Below, piece after piece: positions 2,561 to 32,139 of a stretch of DNA of 45,840 nt; within the stretch, counting starts at the first letter, position 1; every line of letters starts with the position of its first letter. The stretch covers positions 1 to 45,840 of the forward strand of contig JAJDXG010000027.1 in the NCBI GenBank assembly GCA_022823365.1, written 5' to 3'. The notes below the pieces were generated by a model. That model had not been told where the DNA came from. It was given only the letters and a program-made list of their open reading frames with translations, and searched no databases. The stretch is from Gemmatimonadota bacterium (GTDB lineage: Bacteria > Gemmatimonadota > Gemmatimonadetes > Longimicrobiales > Gaopeijiaceae). Both the position numbers and the translations under genes were made by a program.

Positions 2561-3993
2561 GGCGTAAAGCGGCCGGGTCTTCCTACCCTCGGTGGCCGGG
2601 CTTCCCCGAAGGCCTCGCAATCTGCCAACGACGACCACGACCCCTCTTGGGCCTGCGCCAGCTGTTGGAGGGTCATCCGCCGGGCCAAGGAATCCATGGC
2701 GTCTTGGGCTTTTTCGACGCCAGAGACACTGATCCAAAAGTAGGCGCGCACGAGGTCCTCGGGAACGCCGAGGCCGCTGGAGTACAGGGCGCCAAGGCTG
2801 GCCTGGGCTTCGGAGTGCCCGTTATCGGCGGCAGCGCAGTACCAACTCGCGGCGAGGGCAGGCGACTGGGAGCCTCCCTCGCCTCGGTAGATCATGAGCC
2901 CGAGGCGGTACTGGGCTTCGACGCTTATGCGTGGATATGTCGGAAACAGCTCCTGAGAACGTTGAGAGGCATGGTACATGATCCACGCTTTTCCAGCAGA
3001 TGCGGCTGCGCGCCGGAACCACCGGCGGGCCTGGGCCTTGTTCTCGGGGTCATCTCCAGTGTCGTACTCCACCTCTCCGCGGCGGCGGTACGTGTGTCCG
3101 TCGTCGCCGTACGTGTGGTAGTGCACCTCCCCGTTGTAAAGCATGAGCCCGAGGCGGTACGCAGCTTCGGCGTGGCCCGCTTCGGCCGCGCGATGGAAGC
3201 GCGCCGCGGCTGCGGTCTTGCCCATCGACACGTTGTGCTCGCCGTGGTAGTTCATGAGTCCCTGCTGAAACAGTGCCACGGCGCTGTGCTCCTCCGACGC
3301 TTCCGCGAGGGAGTGGTACAATCGCCAAGCCTTCAAGGCGTCCCGGGGGACACCGTCGCCGCGCCGGTACAGGAACGCGAGTCTGTACCGGGCTGTGGCG
3401 TCGCCCTGTGCGGCGGCGCGGCTGTACCACCGGAACGCTTCGGCGTGAAAGCCACCGTCCATGTACTCGTTTCCGAGCATGTACGCGTCACCGAGCTGGA
3501 ACTGGGCCTGGGCGTGGCCCTGCTCGGCGGCACGGCGGTACCAACGCTGGGCTTCGGGCCAGTCGTCGGCCAAGTCCTTCGCGAATCCGAGTCCGTACTG
3601 GGCATCCGCGTGGCCCTGTTCGGCGGCACGGCGGTACCAACGCTGGGCGAAGGCTTGTCTCTCGTCGGACGTCTCGAAGTCCCAGACGAGGCTCCCGCTT
3701 GATAGTCCGACTTGGTATTGCGCGGCGGCATGGCCCTGCTCCGCCGCAGTGAGATACCAACGCACGGCCTCGGCGTAGTCCTCCGGGACCGAGACGCCGT
3801 AACGGTACATGTCCCCGAGCCTGTACTGGGCCTCGGCGTCGCCGCGCTCGGCGGCGGCGAACAAGTCCGAAAGGCTGGGCGGCGTCGGTGGCGGATCGTC
3901 CTGTACGCACGCCACGCACAAGAACGCGACCACCGCGACGGCAGCCACCACCGCCCGCTTGGACACTTGCCCTGTTCTCTTCGTCGCCGCCAC
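2542..3993 (-). CDS. Sel1-repeat lipoprotein
   Basis: A 483-aa protein. GTG at 3993 is chosen as start because GAAGGG lies just upstream; GTG 3966 is an alternative. The N-terminus is a lipoprotein signal: basic residues, a hydrophobic AVVAAVAVVAF core and the lipobox LCVAC, so it should be anchored to an envelope membrane. The mature part consists of about eight Sel1-like TPR repeats (for example AERGDAEAQYRLGDMYRYG, AAEQGHADAQYGLGF, AAEQGHAQAQFQLGDAY). Sel1 repeats form alpha-solenoid protein-protein interaction surfaces. No catalytic domain is present. The C-terminal 20 residues are Arg/Pro-rich and may be an extended read-out after loss of the original stop. Similar envelope repeat proteins (ankyrin) occur elsewhere in the window. 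Confidence 0.8.
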   Translation of the reverse strand: MAATKRTGQVSKRAVVAAVAVVAFLCVACVQDDPPPTPPSLSDLFAAAERGDAEAQYRLGDMYRYGVSVPEDYAEAVRWYLTAAEQGHAAAQYQVGLSSGSLVWDFETSDERQAFAQRWYRRAAEQGHADAQYGLGFAKDLADDWPEAQRWYRRAAEQGHAQAQFQLGDAYMLGNEYMDGGFHAEAFRWYSRAAAQGDATARYRLAFLYRRGDGVPRDALKAWRLYHSLAEASEEHSAVALFQQGLMNYHGEHNVSMGKTAAAARFHRAAEAGHAEAAYRLGLMLYNGEVHYHTYGDDGHTYRRRGEVEYDTGDDPENKAQARRWFRRAAASAGKAWIMYHASQRSQELFPTYPRISVEAQYRLGLMIYRGEGGSQSPALAASWYCAAADNGHSEAQASLGALYSSGLGVPEDLVRAYFWISVSGVEKAQDAMDSLARRMTLQQLAQAQEGSWSSLADCEAFGEARPPRVGRPGRFTPVWTGR

Positions 3994-4142
3994 TTGGCAC
4001 CCTTCGATGCAGGTTGCACAGCACCTAACGGGATAGTCGTAATCGGCAGGGCCGTTGGCAACTCCCGCAGCTTCCCCGTGCTTCCCGGCATTTGAGACGA
4101 TTCTTCCGTCGTGTGAGTGGGGCGGAATCAGATATCGGCCAA

Positions 4143-4205
4143 ACGGCAAGAATAGCAGATCGTGCAGCCCTGATTGAGCTTACGTTACTTCTTACCTTGA
4201 CTTGC
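4143..4205. repeat. 63-bp repeat, copy A
   Basis: This aligns without gaps to 4338-4400, with 51 of 63 bases identical by hand count. It begins ACGGCAAGAA and includes GCAGATCGTGCAG and CTTACGT. The terminal inverted repeat that is perfect in copy B is eroded here (CTTCTTACC instead of TTTCTTGCC). Function unknown. Confidence 0.6.
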
Positions 4206-22963: not shown

Positions 22964-23914
22964 GTGCTTGCCCTGCTGGCGCTGGCCGTGCTGGTCGCGC
23001 GCCTGCCGTCGGCCGACGAATCGGCGGTGTATCCCGACGCGAGCCGCGAGATCCGCCATGTGATCCCGTGGCGAGCCGGCGGCGGGACTGACACCGCGAT
23101 GCGCGGCTTCATGAGGTGGTTCGAGGAGGAGATCGGGGTCGGAGTGGTTACCGAAAATGTCCCGGGAGGACTGAGTTCGGTCGGCCTCACCATCGTGCAA
23201 AACGCCCCCGCGGACGGGTACACGCTCGGGACCATGACCTACGATGCGCTCAGCGTCCAACTGCTCGGCCTGGCGCCGGTGGACTGGAGGGCGCTCGAGC
23301 CGGTGTGCATGGTGACCGAGCATCCCAGCGCCCTGATTGTTCCCGCGGATCGATGGGCGGATCTTGCGGACTTCGAGACGGACGCGCGGGCCAACCCGGC
23401 CACCATCGCCGTGGGCAACGTCGGGCAGAAGGGGGTCTGGCATCAGCACGCCGCAGCCATGGAGCAGGCGATGGGCGTCGAACTGAGGCACATCCCCTAC
23501 GAGGGAGGTTCCGGACCGCAGATCGGCGCGATTCTCGGAGATGAGGTGGATGCCATCGTCTCCAGTCTTCCGGGAGCGATGTCCTACGTGCGCAGCGGGG
23601 AGCTGAGGGTGCTCGCGCTGATGGCGCCGGAGCGCAGTCCCCTGGTGCCGGACGTTCCGACGTTCGCTGAGCTGGGCTACGATCTGGAGTACGGAAGCTT
23701 CCGGATGTTGATGGCACCGGGCGGCACGCCCGATGATCGCCTCGCGACCCTGGAACGCGCCTGCCGAGCCGCCGCCGAGTCGCCCGAGTTCCAGGAGTGG
23801 GCCCGGGCCGGGGCCGTGGGCGCGACGTGGCGCGGACGGGACGCCGTGCGCGGATATCTCGATGACCTCGCGCCGCGCGTCGAGGGGCTTCTGGCCGCGC
23901 TGGAGGATGCGTGA
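22964..23914 (+). CDS. tctC: Tripartite tricarboxylate transporter substrate-binding protein (TctC-like)
   Basis: A 316-aa protein from GTG 22964. An in-frame CTG at 22940, about 9 nt after GAGGAG and right after a run of nine C, would add PLRIPLIV and give a better basic signal-peptide start; that start or a homopolymer error should be considered. Family blocks: REIRHVIPWRAGGGTDTAMR near the start, ENVPGGLSSVG, PADGYTLG, PATIAVGNVGQKGVWHQHA, and VPTFAELGYD near the end. TctC proteins capture carboxylates such as citrate in the periplasm for the TctA/TctB membrane pair, encoded two and three genes downstream. Its stop overlaps the next start (GTGA). Confidence 0.88.
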   Translation: MLALLALAVLVARLPSADESAVYPDASREIRHVIPWRAGGGTDTAMRGFMRWFEEEIGVGVVTENVPGGLSSVGLTIVQNAPADGYTLGTMTYDALSVQLLGLAPVDWRALEPVCMVTEHPSALIVPADRWADLADFETDARANPATIAVGNVGQKGVWHQHAAAMEQAMGVELRHIPYEGGSGPQIGAILGDEVDAIVSSLPGAMSYVRSGELRVLALMAPERSPLVPDVPTFAELGYDLEYGSFRMLMAPGGTPDDRLATLERACRAAAESPEFQEWARAGAVGATWRGRDAVRGYLDDLAPRVEGLLAALEDA

Positions 23915-25629
23915 GCAGGGCAAACGATCCCACGCCGGCGTCGGGGGAAACTGTGAACGGCGGCCAGGCCCTGGTCGGCGTCCTCGAGCACCTTGGCGTC
24001 GACACCATATTCGGCCTGTGCGGCGATACGTCGTTGCCGTGGTACGAGGCGCTGGCCGCGTCGCCCACCATCCGCCACGTCCTCACCCGCGACGAGCGCA
24101 GCGCTGCCTTCATGGCCGACGCCTACGCGCGCCTGAGCGGCAGAGTTGGGGTGTGCGAGGGCCCAAGCGGCGGGGGCGCGACCTACATCCTCCCCGGAGT
24201 CGCGGAGGCGAACGAGTCGTCGGTGCCGATGGTGTGCCTCACCTCCGACATCGCCACCACCGAGCGGGGCGTAGGCACCCTGACCGACCTCGACCAGGCC
24301 GCGCTGTTCGCACCCGTGACCCGGCGGGCATTCTCCCCCACCACCCCCTTGGACCTCCCCGGCATGACGCGCGCAGCCTTCCGGGAGGCCTCGACCGGCA
24401 GCCTCGGCGCCTGCCAGATCGCCCTCCCCTTCGACACCCAGGGCGGTTCGGTCCCCGCTTCGGCCGTTCACGGCGACGCCTGCTACGGCCGCTATCCCGC
24501 CGAGCGGGTCGCCCCCGCCCCCGACCAGGTGCGCGCCGTCGCCCGCGCGCTCGCCCGCAGCCGCCGTCCCCTGATCGTGGCCGGCGCCGGCGTGCTGCGC
24601 TCGGGGGCCTGGAACGAAGTGCGCGCGCTCGCCCGCGCGCTGGGCGCCTTCGTGGCCACCTCCGTCTCCGGCAAGGGGAGCATCGCCGAGACCGACCCCT
24701 TCTCCCTCGGGGTGATCGGCAGCAACGGCGGCCTGCCCTGGCGCCACGACCTGGTGCGCAAGGCCGACGTGGTCTTCTACGTGGGGTGTGCCACCGGCTC
24801 CGTGACCACCGAGAAGTGGACCCTTCCCCGCCCGGGCGACGCGCGCTTCGTTCAGCTGAATGTCGACGCGGGCGTCCTGGGGCGCAGCTACCCCCTCGCC
24901 GCAGGCATGGTGGCCGACGCGCGCGAGGGCCTGGCCGCCCTCACCGCCGAGGTGCACGACCGGGCTGGCGCCGCCCCCCGCCTCGACCCCGCCGAAATCG
25001 CCACCGCCCGGCGCGCCCACCGCGACCGCGTCGCCGGGCTGTTCGCCTCGGACGAGCGACCCATCCGCCCCGAGCGCCTCCTCGCCGAACTGCTGCCGCG
25101 CCTCCCGGAGCGCGCCGTCATCCTCGCCGATCCGGGCACCCCCTGCCCGTACTTCTCCGCCTGGTGGCGCCTCCCCCGGGCCGGCCGCTGGTTCGTCAGC
25201 CCGCGCGCCTTCGGGGCCCTTGGGTACGCGCTTCCCGCCGTGGTCGGCGCGCACTACGCCCGACCCGACGCCGGCCGCGTCATCGGCGTCATGGGCGACG
25301 GCAGCTTCGGCATCTCCGCCGGCGAACTCGAGACCCTGGTGCGGCTCGACCTCCCGGTCACCCTCATCGTCTGCAACAACGCCGGCTACGGCTGGATCAA
25401 GGCGGGCCAGAAAAGCCGCGGCAGCAGTTACTTCTCCGTCGACTTCAAGGACTCCGACCACGCCGCCATCGCCCGCGCCTACGGCCTGCGCGCCCGGCGC
25501 GTGGAGGATCCCGCCGAGCTGGGAGAAGCCGTTCAACAGGCGCTTACCGCCCCCGGCCCGTTCCTCCTCGATGTCGTCACCCAGCCGCTGGAGGAAGCAA
25601 ACGCCCCGGTCTCGAAATGGATCGCGTGA
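23911..25629 (+). CDS. Thiamine-diphosphate-dependent enzyme (acetolactate synthase/decarboxylase-like)
   Basis: A 572-aa protein of the three-domain ThDP family. The N-terminal pyrimidine domain has LGVDTIFGLCGDTSLPWYEA and the activating Glu in TRDERSAAFMADAYARLSG. The central domain has SRRPLIVAGAGVL. The C-terminal domain has the ThDP motif beginning GDGSFGISAGELETLVR and ending CNNAGYGW. It belongs to the acetolactate synthase/oxalyl-CoA decarboxylase/benzoylformate decarboxylase superfamily; residues seen do not settle the substrate. Being wedged between tctC and tctBA, with overlapping or near-overlapping genes, it likely acts on the imported 2-oxo-acid or hydroxy-acid. No ALS small subunit is nearby, which argues against branched-chain biosynthesis. 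Confidence 0.85.
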   Translation: MSRANDPTPASGETVNGGQALVGVLEHLGVDTIFGLCGDTSLPWYEALAASPTIRHVLTRDERSAAFMADAYARLSGRVGVCEGPSGGGATYILPGVAEANESSVPMVCLTSDIATTERGVGTLTDLDQAALFAPVTRRAFSPTTPLDLPGMTRAAFREASTGSLGACQIALPFDTQGGSVPASAVHGDACYGRYPAERVAPAPDQVRAVARALARSRRPLIVAGAGVLRSGAWNEVRALARALGAFVATSVSGKGSIAETDPFSLGVIGSNGGLPWRHDLVRKADVVFYVGCATGSVTTEKWTLPRPGDARFVQLNVDAGVLGRSYPLAAGMVADAREGLAALTAEVHDRAGAAPRLDPAEIATARRAHRDRVAGLFASDERPIRPERLLAELLPRLPERAVILADPGTPCPYFSAWWRLPRAGRWFVSPRAFGALGYALPAVVGAHYARPDAGRVIGVMGDGSFGISAGELETLVRLDLPVTLIVCNNAGYGWIKAGQKSRGSSYFSVDFKDSDHAAIARAYGLRARRVEDPAELGEAVQQALTAPGPFLLDVVTQPLEEANAPVSKWIA

Positions 25630-25642
25630 GGGCGCTGATCGC

Positions 25643-26164
25643 GTGAAACAGAAAGGGGTCGAGTCCGACAGGGCAAAGCGCGTTTCGGATTCCGCAGCCC
25701 CCTCTCCCCGAACCGATCTCATTTCCGGCGGCAGCCTCTTCGTCGTCGCCCTCGCCTACGGCTTCCGGGCCAGCGGGCTCGCCTCCGCGGGAGATGCGGA
25801 CGTCGCCCTCGTCCCAACCGGCCTGGCAGCCGCCCTCGCGCTCCTCTCGGCCGGCATCGCCCTCTCCGGATGGCGCAAGCTGCGGCGTGAGCGCGCAGCC
25901 GAAGCGAGCCGGCCGGTCGACGCCACCCGCCGCGCCGGCCCCGCCCGCGCCTGGACCGTCATCGGCCTCACCGTCCTCTACGCCGCCCTGTTCCAGATCC
26001 TGGGCTACGTCCTCGCGACCCTGCTCTACACCGGCGCGGTCGCGGAGCGCTTCGGCGCCCGGCGACGAACGATCCTCGCAATCGTCCCCTGCGTGACGCT
26101 CCTCACCTTCTTCCTCTTCCGCGTGATCCTCGGGGCGCGCCTGCCAGCAGGCCTGCTCGGATGA
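25643..26164 (+). CDS. tctB: Tripartite tricarboxylate transporter small membrane subunit (TctB-like)
   Basis: A 173-aa protein; GTG 25643 with GAGGG upstream, just after the ThDP gene. Four hydrophobic helices: about 30-48 (GGSLFVVALAYGF), 60-78 (LVPTGLAAALALLSAGIAL), 108-130 (WTVIGLTVLYAALFQILGYV) and 145-165 (ILAIVPCVTLLTFFLFRVIL). This arrangement, with the basic loop between helices 2 and 3, is that of TctB. It forms the membrane complex with the large TctA subunit, whose start overlaps its stop (ATGA). Confidence 0.85.
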   Translation: MKQKGVESDRAKRVSDSAAPSPRTDLISGGSLFVVALAYGFRASGLASAGDADVALVPTGLAAALALLSAGIALSGWRKLRRERAAEASRPVDATRRAGPARAWTVIGLTVLYAALFQILGYVLATLLYTGAVAERFGARRRTILAIVPCVTLLTFFLFRVILGARLPAGLLG

Positions 26165-27645
26165 GCCTCGAAGTCCTCCTCGACCCGATCCTCCTGCTGT
26201 CCCTCGCGGCCGGATCGCTGCTCGGCATCGCCATCGGCGCCATCCCGGGCCTCACCGCCACCCTGGCAATCGCGCTGCTGCTGCCGCTCACCTATCAGCT
26301 TTCGGCGGCCAACGCGATCGTGATGATGGTCGGGATCTTCACCGGAGGCCTCTACGGCGGCTCGATCGCGGCGATCGCGCTCCGAATTCCCGGGGCGCCC
26401 GCGAACGCGATGACCATGCTCGACGGAAACGCGATGGCGCTCCAGGGCCGGACCGGCACCGCTATCGGCATCGCTACCTTCAGTTCCGTCGTGGGAGGCC
26501 TGGCCGGGGGCGTGGTGCTGGTGCTCTTCAGCCCGCAGCTGGCGCGCATCGCGCTTCGCTTCCAGTCGCCCGAGATGTTCGCCCTGGTGGTGCTGGCGCT
26601 GGTCGCGGTCGCGACGGTCTCGCGCGAGTCGCTCGCCAAGGGCATGGCAGCCACCGTCATCGGGCTGATGCTCTCCACGGTCGGCATCGACCCGCTGGTA
26701 CCGGTCCCGCGCTACACCCTGGGCTCGGTGAACCTGCTGGTGGGGCTGCCGCTGATTCCGGTCGTGATCGGCATCTTCGCCTTCACCGAGTTGTTCCGTC
26801 AGGCCGGCCGGCCCCCGTCCCGGGCGCACGAGCACCCCTCGCACGGGCGGGAAGGAGCGCTGGGCTGGTGGCGCGAGGTGCGGCGCGTGGGGTGGAGGCC
26901 CTTCGTCAAGAACTCGGTGATCGGCACATCGGTCGGGGCGCTCCCGGGCGCCGGCGGTGCCATGGCTGCCTTCCTGGCCTACAGCGAGGCCCGCCGCAGC
27001 TCGCCCGAGCCGGAACGCTTCGGCAAGGGTGCCCCCGAGGGCATCGTCGCGCCCGAAGTCGCCAACAACGCCGTGACCGGAGGTGCGCTCATCCCGCTGC
27101 TGGCGCTCGGAATCCCCGGAGACTCGGTGACCGCGGTCATCCTCGGCGGCCTGGTCATTCACGGCATCACCCCCGGTCCCCAGCTCTTCACCGAGAACGC
27201 GGACCTGGTCGCCCCGCTCTTCGCCGCATTCTTCGCCAGCTACCTGCTGATCCTGGTGTTCGGCCTGACGCTGCTTCCACTGTACGCGTGCATTACGCGT
27301 GTGCCGCGAAGCATCCTCTTCTCCGCGATCGCACCGCTCGCCGTTGTCGCGGCCTTCACCTCGGAGCGGACGACGTTCGCCATCTACGTCGCCGTGGGCA
27401 TCGGCATCCTGGGCTACATCCTGCGACGCTTCGGCTACCCGGTGATCCCCGTGCTCCTCGGGCTCATTCTGGGCCCGATGCTCGAGTCCAACTTCCGCCG
27501 CGCCCTGATTCTGTCGGACGGAGATCCCCTCATCTTCATCTCATCGCCCATCAGCGTCGGGTTATTACTCGCCGCCGCCGGCTTCCTTCTCTACGTCGTG
27601 CAGGGACAGCGGAGGACGAGGGCGGGTTCGAGCGAACAGGGGTAG
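26161..27645 (+). CDS. tctA: Tripartite tricarboxylate transporter large membrane subunit (TctA-like)
   Basis: A 494-aa protein, the usual length for TctA. It has about a dozen hydrophobic segments and the family hallmarks GIAIGAIPGLTATLAIALLL near the N-terminus and GALPGAGGAMAAFLAYSEAR in the middle, plus APEVANNAVTGGALIPLLAL and GIPGDSVTAVILGG. It forms the ion-driven channel that receives substrate from TctC. Last gene of the operon; it converges with the toxin-antitoxin relic, and I see no T-rich terminator in the gap. Confidence 0.92.
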   Translation: MSLEVLLDPILLLSLAAGSLLGIAIGAIPGLTATLAIALLLPLTYQLSAANAIVMMVGIFTGGLYGGSIAAIALRIPGAPANAMTMLDGNAMALQGRTGTAIGIATFSSVVGGLAGGVVLVLFSPQLARIALRFQSPEMFALVVLALVAVATVSRESLAKGMAATVIGLMLSTVGIDPLVPVPRYTLGSVNLLVGLPLIPVVIGIFAFTELFRQAGRPPSRAHEHPSHGREGALGWWREVRRVGWRPFVKNSVIGTSVGALPGAGGAMAAFLAYSEARRSSPEPERFGKGAPEGIVAPEVANNAVTGGALIPLLALGIPGDSVTAVILGGLVIHGITPGPQLFTENADLVAPLFAAFFASYLLILVFGLTLLPLYACITRVPRSILFSAIAPLAVVAAFTSERTTFAIYVAVGIGILGYILRRFGYPVIPVLLGLILGPMLESNFRRALILSDGDPLIFISSPISVGLLLAAAGFLLYVVQGQRRTRAGSSEQG

Positions 27646-30147: not shown

Positions 30148-31983
30148 TTACCATCCAATCACGTAGTCGCTCTTCGCCGGGCTGACGCCGCCGTACATAA
30201 CGCCGGTCTCCGGATCGATCATCACCATCTTGACCGCCCCGGCCCCGGACGCCGCCTGGCGGTACGGCTGCTGCAGCGGGCTCACCTCCACGCGGTGTCC
30301 CAAGGCGGCCAGCGCCTCGCCCGCCCCCTGGTACAGCACCTCGGGCATCGTCAGCATGCCCCGCATGCGCCCCGGGTACATCGACGCGCGGAAGGCGGTG
30401 CTCGTCACCGTGGGCGCCTCCACCGCCTGCTGCACGTTCATGCCGAAGTGCACCACCGCCAGGAACGCCTGCAGCATTGCCTGCGGCTGGTTGTCGCCCC
30501 CGGGGGTGTTCCACGCCAGGTACGGCTGGCCGTCCTTCAGCGCCAGCGCCGGGTTGATGGTGTGGCGGGTGCGCTTGCCCGGCTCCAGCACATTCACGTC
30601 GTCGGGCTCGAGCCCGTAGTAGGGCATGCGGTTGTTCAGGAAGTAGCCGCCGCCCGGAACCACCATCCCGCTGCCGAAGCTCGAGTTCACGCTGTGCGTC
30701 ACCGAGACCAGGTTCCCGAAGCGGTCCGCGATGGAGAACGACGAGGTCTCGCCGTCCTCCCGATAGAGAACCTCCGGCCGGGAGACGTCCTGCGCCCCGC
30801 TCTCGTACTCGACGCCGTCTCCATCCGCCACTGCGGCCATCCGCCGCGGATCCCCGGCCGGCGCCACGCTCATCGCCCGGTCCATGCGAATGAGTCCGCG
30901 CCGCTCGGCCGCGTATTCCTTCGACAGCAGTTCCTGCGTGGGTACGTCGCTGAAGCGCGGGTCGGCCACGTATCGGTTCCGGTCGGCGAAGCCCAGCTTC
31001 ATCGCCTCCGTGACCACATGCACGTATTCCGCGGAGTTGTGGCCCATCGCCTCCAGATCGAAGCCTTCGAGGATGTTCAGCGCCATGAGCATGACGATGC
31101 CCTGCGAGTTGGGCGCGCTCTGGTAGACCTCGAGCCCCTCGTAGCTCACCTGGATCGGATCCGCCTCCTCGGCCTCATAGCCCGCGAGGTCCTCGTAGCG
31201 AAGCAGTCCGCCCTGTTCCGCGTAGTAGTCCGCGCTCATCCGGGCCAGCCGGCCCCGGTAGAAGGCGTCGGCGCCCTCGCGCGCGATCTCCTCAAGGGAA
31301 CGGGCCAGATCCTCCTGCACGTACAGGTCGCCCACTCCGAGCAGCCTCCCGTCCGGCATCAGCAGCTCCCGCGAGGCGGGGTAGGGGGAGATCTTCTCCA
31401 TCGAGCGCTCGTGATGTCCGGCGACCCAGAAGTCGAGCGGATGCCCCTGGCGCGCGGCGCGGATCGCGGGCGCCAGCACCTGTTCCCTGGGCAGGCTCCC
31501 GTAGCGCGAGTGGGCCAATTCGAAGGCGCCCACCGCGCCCGGGACGTCGGTCGACAGCGGCCCGGCGCCGGGGATGCCTCCTTGTTCCTCGTAGAACTCG
31601 CGCGTCGCGAGCGCGGGCGCGTGCCCGGTTCCATTGATGAAGACGACGCGGTCCTCGGCGGCGAGATAGGCGACCATGAAGGCGTCGCCCCCGATGCCCG
31701 CCTGGTGCTGTTCCACGACCGTCGTCATGTAGAAGACCGCCGAAGCGGCGTCGAAGGCGTTCCCGCCCGCGCGCAGCACCTCCTCGGCGGCCAGCGCCTC
31801 CAGCGGATGCTCCGCGGCGACCATCGCCTCGGTGCCGAGGATGACCGGGCGCCAGACGGGCCGATCGGATGCCTCCTGGGCTCCCGCGGGAGGCGTGCCC
31901 GCAGCGGCGAGCAGGAGCAGGAACATGATCGCGCCGGGGACGCGTGCGGCGTCCCGGCCGGTGGTGCGGAAGATTGCGTTCAT
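30148..31983 (-). CDS. ggt: Exported gamma-glutamyltransferase
   Basis: A 611-aa protein; ATG 31983 with GGAGG upstream. A signal peptide (AIMFLLLLAAAGTPPAGA) sends it to the periplasm. Family blocks: GGNAFDAASAVFYMTTVVEQ, HQAGIGGDAFMV, SAPNSQGIVMLMALNIL, and the autoprocessing site GETSSFSIADRFGNLVSVTH, where the first Thr becomes the N-terminal nucleophile of the small subunit; then FLNNRMPYYGLEPD and AWNTPGGDNQPQAMLQ. It would hydrolyse or transfer gamma-glutamyl groups (glutathione and gamma-glutamyl peptides). First gene of an operon with the small protein and amidase; divergent from exbB. Confidence 0.9.
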   Translation of the reverse strand: MNAIFRTTGRDAARVPGAIMFLLLLAAAGTPPAGAQEASDRPVWRPVILGTEAMVAAEHPLEALAAEEVLRAGGNAFDAASAVFYMTTVVEQHQAGIGGDAFMVAYLAAEDRVVFINGTGHAPALATREFYEEQGGIPGAGPLSTDVPGAVGAFELAHSRYGSLPREQVLAPAIRAARQGHPLDFWVAGHHERSMEKISPYPASRELLMPDGRLLGVGDLYVQEDLARSLEEIAREGADAFYRGRLARMSADYYAEQGGLLRYEDLAGYEAEEADPIQVSYEGLEVYQSAPNSQGIVMLMALNILEGFDLEAMGHNSAEYVHVVTEAMKLGFADRNRYVADPRFSDVPTQELLSKEYAAERRGLIRMDRAMSVAPAGDPRRMAAVADGDGVEYESGAQDVSRPEVLYREDGETSSFSIADRFGNLVSVTHSVNSSFGSGMVVPGGGYFLNNRMPYYGLEPDDVNVLEPGKRTRHTINPALALKDGQPYLAWNTPGGDNQPQAMLQAFLAVVHFGMNVQQAVEAPTVTSTAFRASMYPGRMRGMLTMPEVLYQGAGEALAALGHRVEVSPLQQPYRQAASGAGAVKMVMIDPETGVMYGGVSPAKSDYVIGW

Positions 31984-32139
31984 GGCATCGCCTCCTGGCG
32001 GGATTTCGGCGTTGACAGGCCAGCGGATGGGCAGGTAGTTTCGCACTGCTGAAGTAGCGCGCGCGGTGCGTGCTCGCTAGAGTTCCGTCTCTCCGGGCAT
32101 CTGCGATCCCGGTCGAATCCCGTCAAAAGGAAGGCTTCG

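Follow-up and report, generated by a model that had tools for sequence, protein, structure and literature searches.

A ThDP-dependent enzyme gene within a tricarboxylate transporter operon of Gemmatimonadota: probable partners in the uptake and breakdown of a small carboxylate

What is the gene of a ThDP-dependent enzyme doing inside the operon of a tripartite tricarboxylate transporter (TTT)? The question is raised by a stretch of 45,840 nucleotides (the whole of which is called the window hereafter) from a 98%-complete MAG closely related to Candidatus Palauibacter and BD2-11 Gemmatimonadota, and in which tctC and tctB are separated by such a gene. Although TTT receptors abound, ligands are known for few of them. 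A TTT that has the same type of enzyme at its side in different phyla would offer two handles on one substrate, i.e., receptor binding and turnover. The reading favoured here, to which we give a probability of roughly 0.6, is that all four genes belong to a single catabolic unit, in which the TTT would import a compound that the ThDP enzyme cleaves, most likely by decarboxylation of a 2-oxo acid.

The first-pass annotation had described the order tctC-ThDP-tctB-tctA, with GTGA and ATGA overlaps, a 13-bp gap and no regulatory subunit of acetolactate synthase, and this description holds: the four ORFs are found in that order on one strand (Table 1), with the GTGA overlap at 23911-23914, the gap at 25630-25642 and the ATGA overlap at 26161-26164, and no ilvH/ilvN-like ORF lies within the cassette. 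All its Pfam domains score over their curated cut-offs in the profile search, including those of TctC, TctB and TctA, so the complete set of TTT subunits is encoded jointly. The starts of the two upstream genes are less clear-cut. In the window and in one sibling locus (L028), a 38-bp gap separates tctC from the conserved GTG codon at 23953 (V15 of the ThDP protein), which the reading from 23911 precedes with an in-frame extension of 14 codons; since the equivalent codon forms the GTGA overlap in other siblings, translation may truly begin there, 14 residues later. For tctC, too, an earlier start is possible, at an in-frame CTG (22940) where one relative has TTG. No regulator gene lies inside the cassette, the promoter and terminator scans of it gave no signal above chance, and the only match of an Rfam search of the window was a tRNA.

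Table 1. Location of the cassette genes and of the other loci referred to in the text (plain coordinates are those of the window; the others are preceded by the handle of the locus)
Feature	Location	Strand	Remarks
tctC, TTT periplasmic solute-binding protein	22964..23914	+	PF03401, 140 bits; best PDB matches 4x9t and 25hk, ~118 bits each
ThDP-dependent enzyme gene	23911..25629	+	PF02776/PF00205/PF02775, 104-125 bits each
Conserved GTG, alternative start codon for the ThDP enzyme (VNGGQALVG)	23953..23955	+	coincides with the GTGA overlap in 4/7 sibling loci
tctB, TTT small membrane subunit	25643..26164	+	PF07331, 55 bits
tctA, TTT large membrane subunit	26161..27645	+	PF01970, 461 bits
Gamma-glutamyltranspeptidase gene	30148-32046	-	past the amidase gene
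Second tctC-tctB-tctA operon of the same genome	L112:3947-9740 (G000:C16)		follows a large ORF for a putative permease
ilvB/ilvH	L109:5536-8066 (G000:C7)		head to head, on opposite strands
xsc	L110:5962-7692 (G000:C25)
Sulfopyruvate-decarboxylase-like alpha/beta pair, second genus	L213:14033-15120	+	TIGR03845 113 bits and TIGR03846 146 bits, both under cut-off
ORF similar to that pair	L113 ~3386-4186	-
ThDP, orphan tctC, AtuA, DUF4387 and RraA genes, Variovorax	L123:13729-17067
TTT operons with ThDP neighbours of other families (PRK06112-type, Oxc/HACL-like)	L278:5722-11336, L279:5294-9953

A search for the gene order, which the first-pass annotation had proposed, revealed that it is not unique to this contig. 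The full order is present in eight of the 11 genomes of the genus, with a ninth (G002) in which the cassette ends at a contig edge, and there is no close match to it in G007 (67% complete) or G009; it also appears in two genomes of a second genus (G029 and G902). Beyond these, the 298 Gemmatimonadota genomes sampled yielded as further matches only G902 itself and one distant homologue with 35% identity. The flanking genes, all on the opposite strand, encode sortilin-like and ankyrin proteins upstream and an Xre-type regulator, an amidase and a gamma-glutamyltranspeptidase downstream; they are largely syntenic in the genus and are missing next to the cassette of G029 and G902, where the flanks are unrelated, which delimits the unit to the four genes. 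The host genome carries in addition a second, ordinary TTT operon. Moreover, three MAG records titled Gammaproteobacteria (L030, L031 and L045) contain a Palauibacter-type cassette at 94-97% identity and are therefore probably mislabelled.

The enzyme itself has the PYR, central and PP domains (three TPP Pfam domains), the central TPP_enzyme_M being complete (137/137, 104 bits). In the alignment, its catalytic Glu lies within RDERSAA (RDER) and its cofactor motif reads GDGS...NN; E62 and G462-D463 are invariant (alignment A1), the catalytic Glu and the GDGS are conserved at the 95% level across its clade, and this clade has motifs of its own, RA-x-G and GWI. In a tree built by a quick method, in which several reference branches are long, the clade comprises 63 rows with a support of 99 and stands apart from IlvB, Gcl, Xsc, Oxc (the E. 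coli protein), PoxB and AruI. In the NCBIfam search, the enzyme falls under the cut-off of every model among the best 25 of 56, including those of Xsc, AruI, Gcl and PoxB. No oxalyl-CoA decarboxylase or 2-hydroxyacyl-CoA lyase model is among these 25. The best match, NF004772 (PRK06112), scores 375 bits where 673 would be required, and although PRK06112 shares with the window enzyme an arginine at the PRG/PRA position, it sits on a separate branch. The clade is a widespread and functionally uncharacterised ThDP family, for no member of which a report of activity was found.

Is the reaction a decarboxylation? Judged from the sequence it probably is, and the strongest competitor is a carboligase or lyase, similar to HKA synthase, glyoxylate carboligase or 2-hydroxyacyl-CoA lyase, which would join or split two carbon units derived from the imported acid. 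The AF2 model (pLDDT 85.8) adopts the ALS/POX/HACL fold, and BbmA, titled ThDP-dependent HKA synthase, is both its best structural match (Z 43.4) and the closest PDB sequence (238 bits), with 2-hydroxyacyl-CoA lyases and AHAS also among the close fold matches. However, the identity to BbmA is only ~30%, and the top Z values are nearly tied among BbmA, acetolactate synthases and pyruvate oxidase, other ThDP families lying ~1-2 Z units from the best, so that the fold search did not split decarboxylases from carboligases. Also against a carboligase or lyase, the region holding FDDR in AHAS reads ATGSVTT in the window enzyme, and the cassette has no gene that would make an acyl-CoA. We therefore consider this alternative unlikely, though still one to be taken seriously.

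The association of the transporter and the enzyme is not restricted to Gemmatimonadota. Among 385 Alphaproteobacteria, 37 have a homologue of the ThDP enzyme at E < 1e-105, mostly with 43-55% identity, and in the Rhodobacterales Qingshengfaniella and Pacificitalea the gene (48% identical to the window enzyme) heads operons of the type GntR / ThDP-tctC-tctB-tctA. The search from the ThDP enzyme also reached ThDP-tctC pairs in Burkholderiales. In the reverse direction, a search with TctC against 913 plasmid records gave seven best matches, and each of the six that were examined has a ThDP gene as its neighbour (Qingshengfaniella, Rhodovulum MB263, Sulfitobacter indolifex, Pacificitalea, Alloyangia and R. 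sulfidophilum; the seventh, left out of the count, is a second R. sulfidophilum record); in two weaker matches examined, no ThDP gene of the window kind was found directly beside tctC. Outside Gemmatimonadota, the nearest relatives of the window TctC and TctA come from TTTs with a ThDP gene likewise at their side, and the TctA proteins of the ThDP-linked operons, from the Gemmatimonadota window and from Rhodobacterales, form one clade (100/100), apart from the second TTT of the host genome and from 25 sampled TctA. With the window enzyme, the ThDP enzymes of Rhodovulum, S. indolifex and Alloyangia share only 34-36% identity, and they branch as a sister group. The ThDP and TctA trees are not congruent; enzyme and transporter may have been paired long ago, with later losses, or may have come together repeatedly.

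In any case, the link between the TTT and the ThDP gene goes beyond chance, and its recurrence in distantly related marine bacteria makes a dedicated uptake-and-breakdown unit probable. One could still argue that the adjacency is merely historical, i.e., that a TTT operon acquired the ThDP gene while the proteins act on unrelated compounds: what connects them is gene context, and Sulfitobacter LC.270 has a TctA of the ThDP-linked clade with no ThDP neighbour. Nonetheless, the tight junctions, a linkage seen from both sides and the recurrence across phyla in two gene orders make a mere accident of history very improbable. The idea of a dedicated import unit, already put forward in the first-pass annotation, is thereby strengthened by the recurring order, by the ThDP genes beside the relatives of TctC and TctA, and by an enzyme that is not an IlvB.

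How would such a unit work? The direction of transport, the type of reaction and the class of substrate are predictions in the following scheme. By analogy with the established mechanism of TTTs, a secondary, ion-coupled uptake, TctC would bind a small carboxylate on the periplasmic side and TctAB would carry it inwards. There the ThDP enzyme, by means of its ThDP ylide, would cut it between C1 and C2; most likely this would be the decarboxylation of a 2-oxo acid, giving an aldehyde whose breakdown general metabolism would complete. The enzymes of this clade would work with interchangeable importers, and indeed the importer encoded beside the ThDP gene varies among TRAP, TAXI-TRAP, ABC and TTT. 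The partner genes vary with it: at the loci with a DctP-type TRAP (n=13), a PRK07475-type homologue of Asp/Glu racemases is present in all 13 and a DadA-like FAD oxidase in 12, whereas neither appears in any of the 10 loci with a TTT or a TctC (Fisher p ~1e-5, a value uncorrected for kinship). The loci L228-L231 fell below the ThDP threshold of the automatic locus scan and were covered by annotation instead. For the racemase homologue, nothing matched in the PDB at E 0.001. We infer that the DadA-like oxidase supplies the 2-oxo acid in the TRAP loci, where it could form it from an amino or imino acid; since the oxidase is absent from the TTT loci, i.e., the window and some Rhodobacterales, the TTT there probably delivers the 2-oxo acid itself or a ready precursor. 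Distance weakens this reading: sister loci whose enzymes are ~50% identical to that of the window may differ from it in function, and the partners in Rhodovulum, S. indolifex and Alloyangia are more distant still (34-36%).

As for the substrate, one lead comes from a sister locus in Ruegeria, whose TRAP receptor is closest to 6wgm (~164/300 identical, ~55%), which presumably holds pyroglutamate, and is clearly related to 2pfz and 2pfy, which we take to be DctP6 and DctP7. The structures of DctP6 and DctP7 from Bordetella were solved with pyroglutamate (PMC13274462; PMC5812351). This would be compatible with a new catabolic route for a pyroglutamate- or glutamate-like compound, or for its 2-oxo acid, with swappable carriers and breakdown by the ThDP enzyme, the TTT version importing the 2-oxo acid directly. 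Such a route is speculative and rather doubtful; the lead comes from the Ruegeria TRAP receptor and not from the window proteins, and it concerns the class of substrate. The gamma-glutamyltranspeptidase gene downstream of the cassette, syntenic in most genomes of the genus, is of interest beside this lead, although its position is perhaps coincidental.

A role in C3 sulfonate metabolism was considered as well. In such a role, the import of sulfolactate or sulfopyruvate would fall to the TTT, while the ThDP enzyme would stand in for ComDE, likewise a ThDP-dependent 2-oxo-acid decarboxylase, upstream of Xsc. Its attraction lies in the true Xsc of the window genome (TIGR03457, 734 bits over a cut-off of 676), in the failure to find any ComE homologue among the 11 genus genomes and in the precedent of SlcHFG, reported as a TTT importer of sulfolactate (PMC5812351). 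In one Ruegeria locus, pta and a sulfate-exporter gene also lie close by. However, G029 (99% complete) has the cassette and no Xsc, G009 has Xsc and no cassette, and G902 has ComDE-like genes. Among the clade loci scanned, pta and the exporter occur in just that one and xsc in none. We accordingly give the sulfonate role little credence. Sulfopyruvate and phosphonopyruvate decarboxylases (ComDE, Ppd) lack the central TPP_enzyme_M domain, and the window enzyme departs from this two-domain build in having the domain complete. Xsc is encoded in 10 of the 11 genus genomes, with two copies in G010, and in the second genus a sulfopyruvate-decarboxylase-like alpha/beta pair lies ~4 kb from the cassette, with a similar ORF in another locus (Table 1); the genus of the window gave no match to the beta subunit.

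Finally, that the enzyme is an acetolactate synthase (AHAS/IlvB), biosynthetic or catabolic, placed in a transporter operon by chance, is scarcely credible: the three-domain fold and the ThDP motifs are common to both and automatic models propose the name (NF004772 being the best), but the curated cut-offs among the best 25 of 56 models are all missed (TIGR00118 with 298 bits against 538), the arginine of the AHAS FDDR motif is missing, no ilvH is adjacent, and the same genome has its own ilvB (TIGR00118, 641 > 538) beside ilvH (161 > 119), this IlvB grouping in the tree with E. coli IlvB and not with the window enzyme. The tree placement suggested in the first-pass annotation thus puts the enzyme outside the IlvB clade. 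The genuine ilvB and ilvH stand head to head and not in the usual co-directional order.

Catabolic enzymes encoded beside TTT genes are already known; here it is an enzyme of this ThDP clade that forms a conserved unit with the TTT. The operons for citrate (TctCBA), sulfolactate (SlcHFG) and terephthalate (TpiBA/TphC) have the same three subunits, with catabolic genes reported nearby, whereas here the enzyme gene sits between tctC and tctB and belongs to a clade with no assigned function. Arylmalonate decarboxylase genes also adjoin TTT, TRAP or ABC importer genes, in clusters that likewise combine one enzyme family with interchangeable importers and contain MR/MLE genes (PMC4996985), but those decarboxylases are cofactor-free and the window enzyme is predicted to depend on ThDP. 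In open-licence papers, no description of the present TTT-ThDP pairing was found, and tricarboxylate transporters go unmentioned in the Palauibacterales paper. Members of the family carry no label beyond "thiamine pyrophosphate-binding protein" or match models named "acetolactate synthase", so that a functional assignment would put right many annotations of marine Rhodobacterales and of Gemmatimonadota.

Pairings of a similar kind occur elsewhere. Two of the 25 sampled alphaproteobacterial TctA loci adjoin ThDP enzymes of other families, in the orders GntR-ThDP(PRK06112-type)-tctA-tctB-tctC and tctC-tctA-ThDP(Oxc/HACL-like). In Variovorax, ThDP, orphan tctC, AtuA, DUF4387 and RraA genes follow one another in a row, as a possible catabolic operon.
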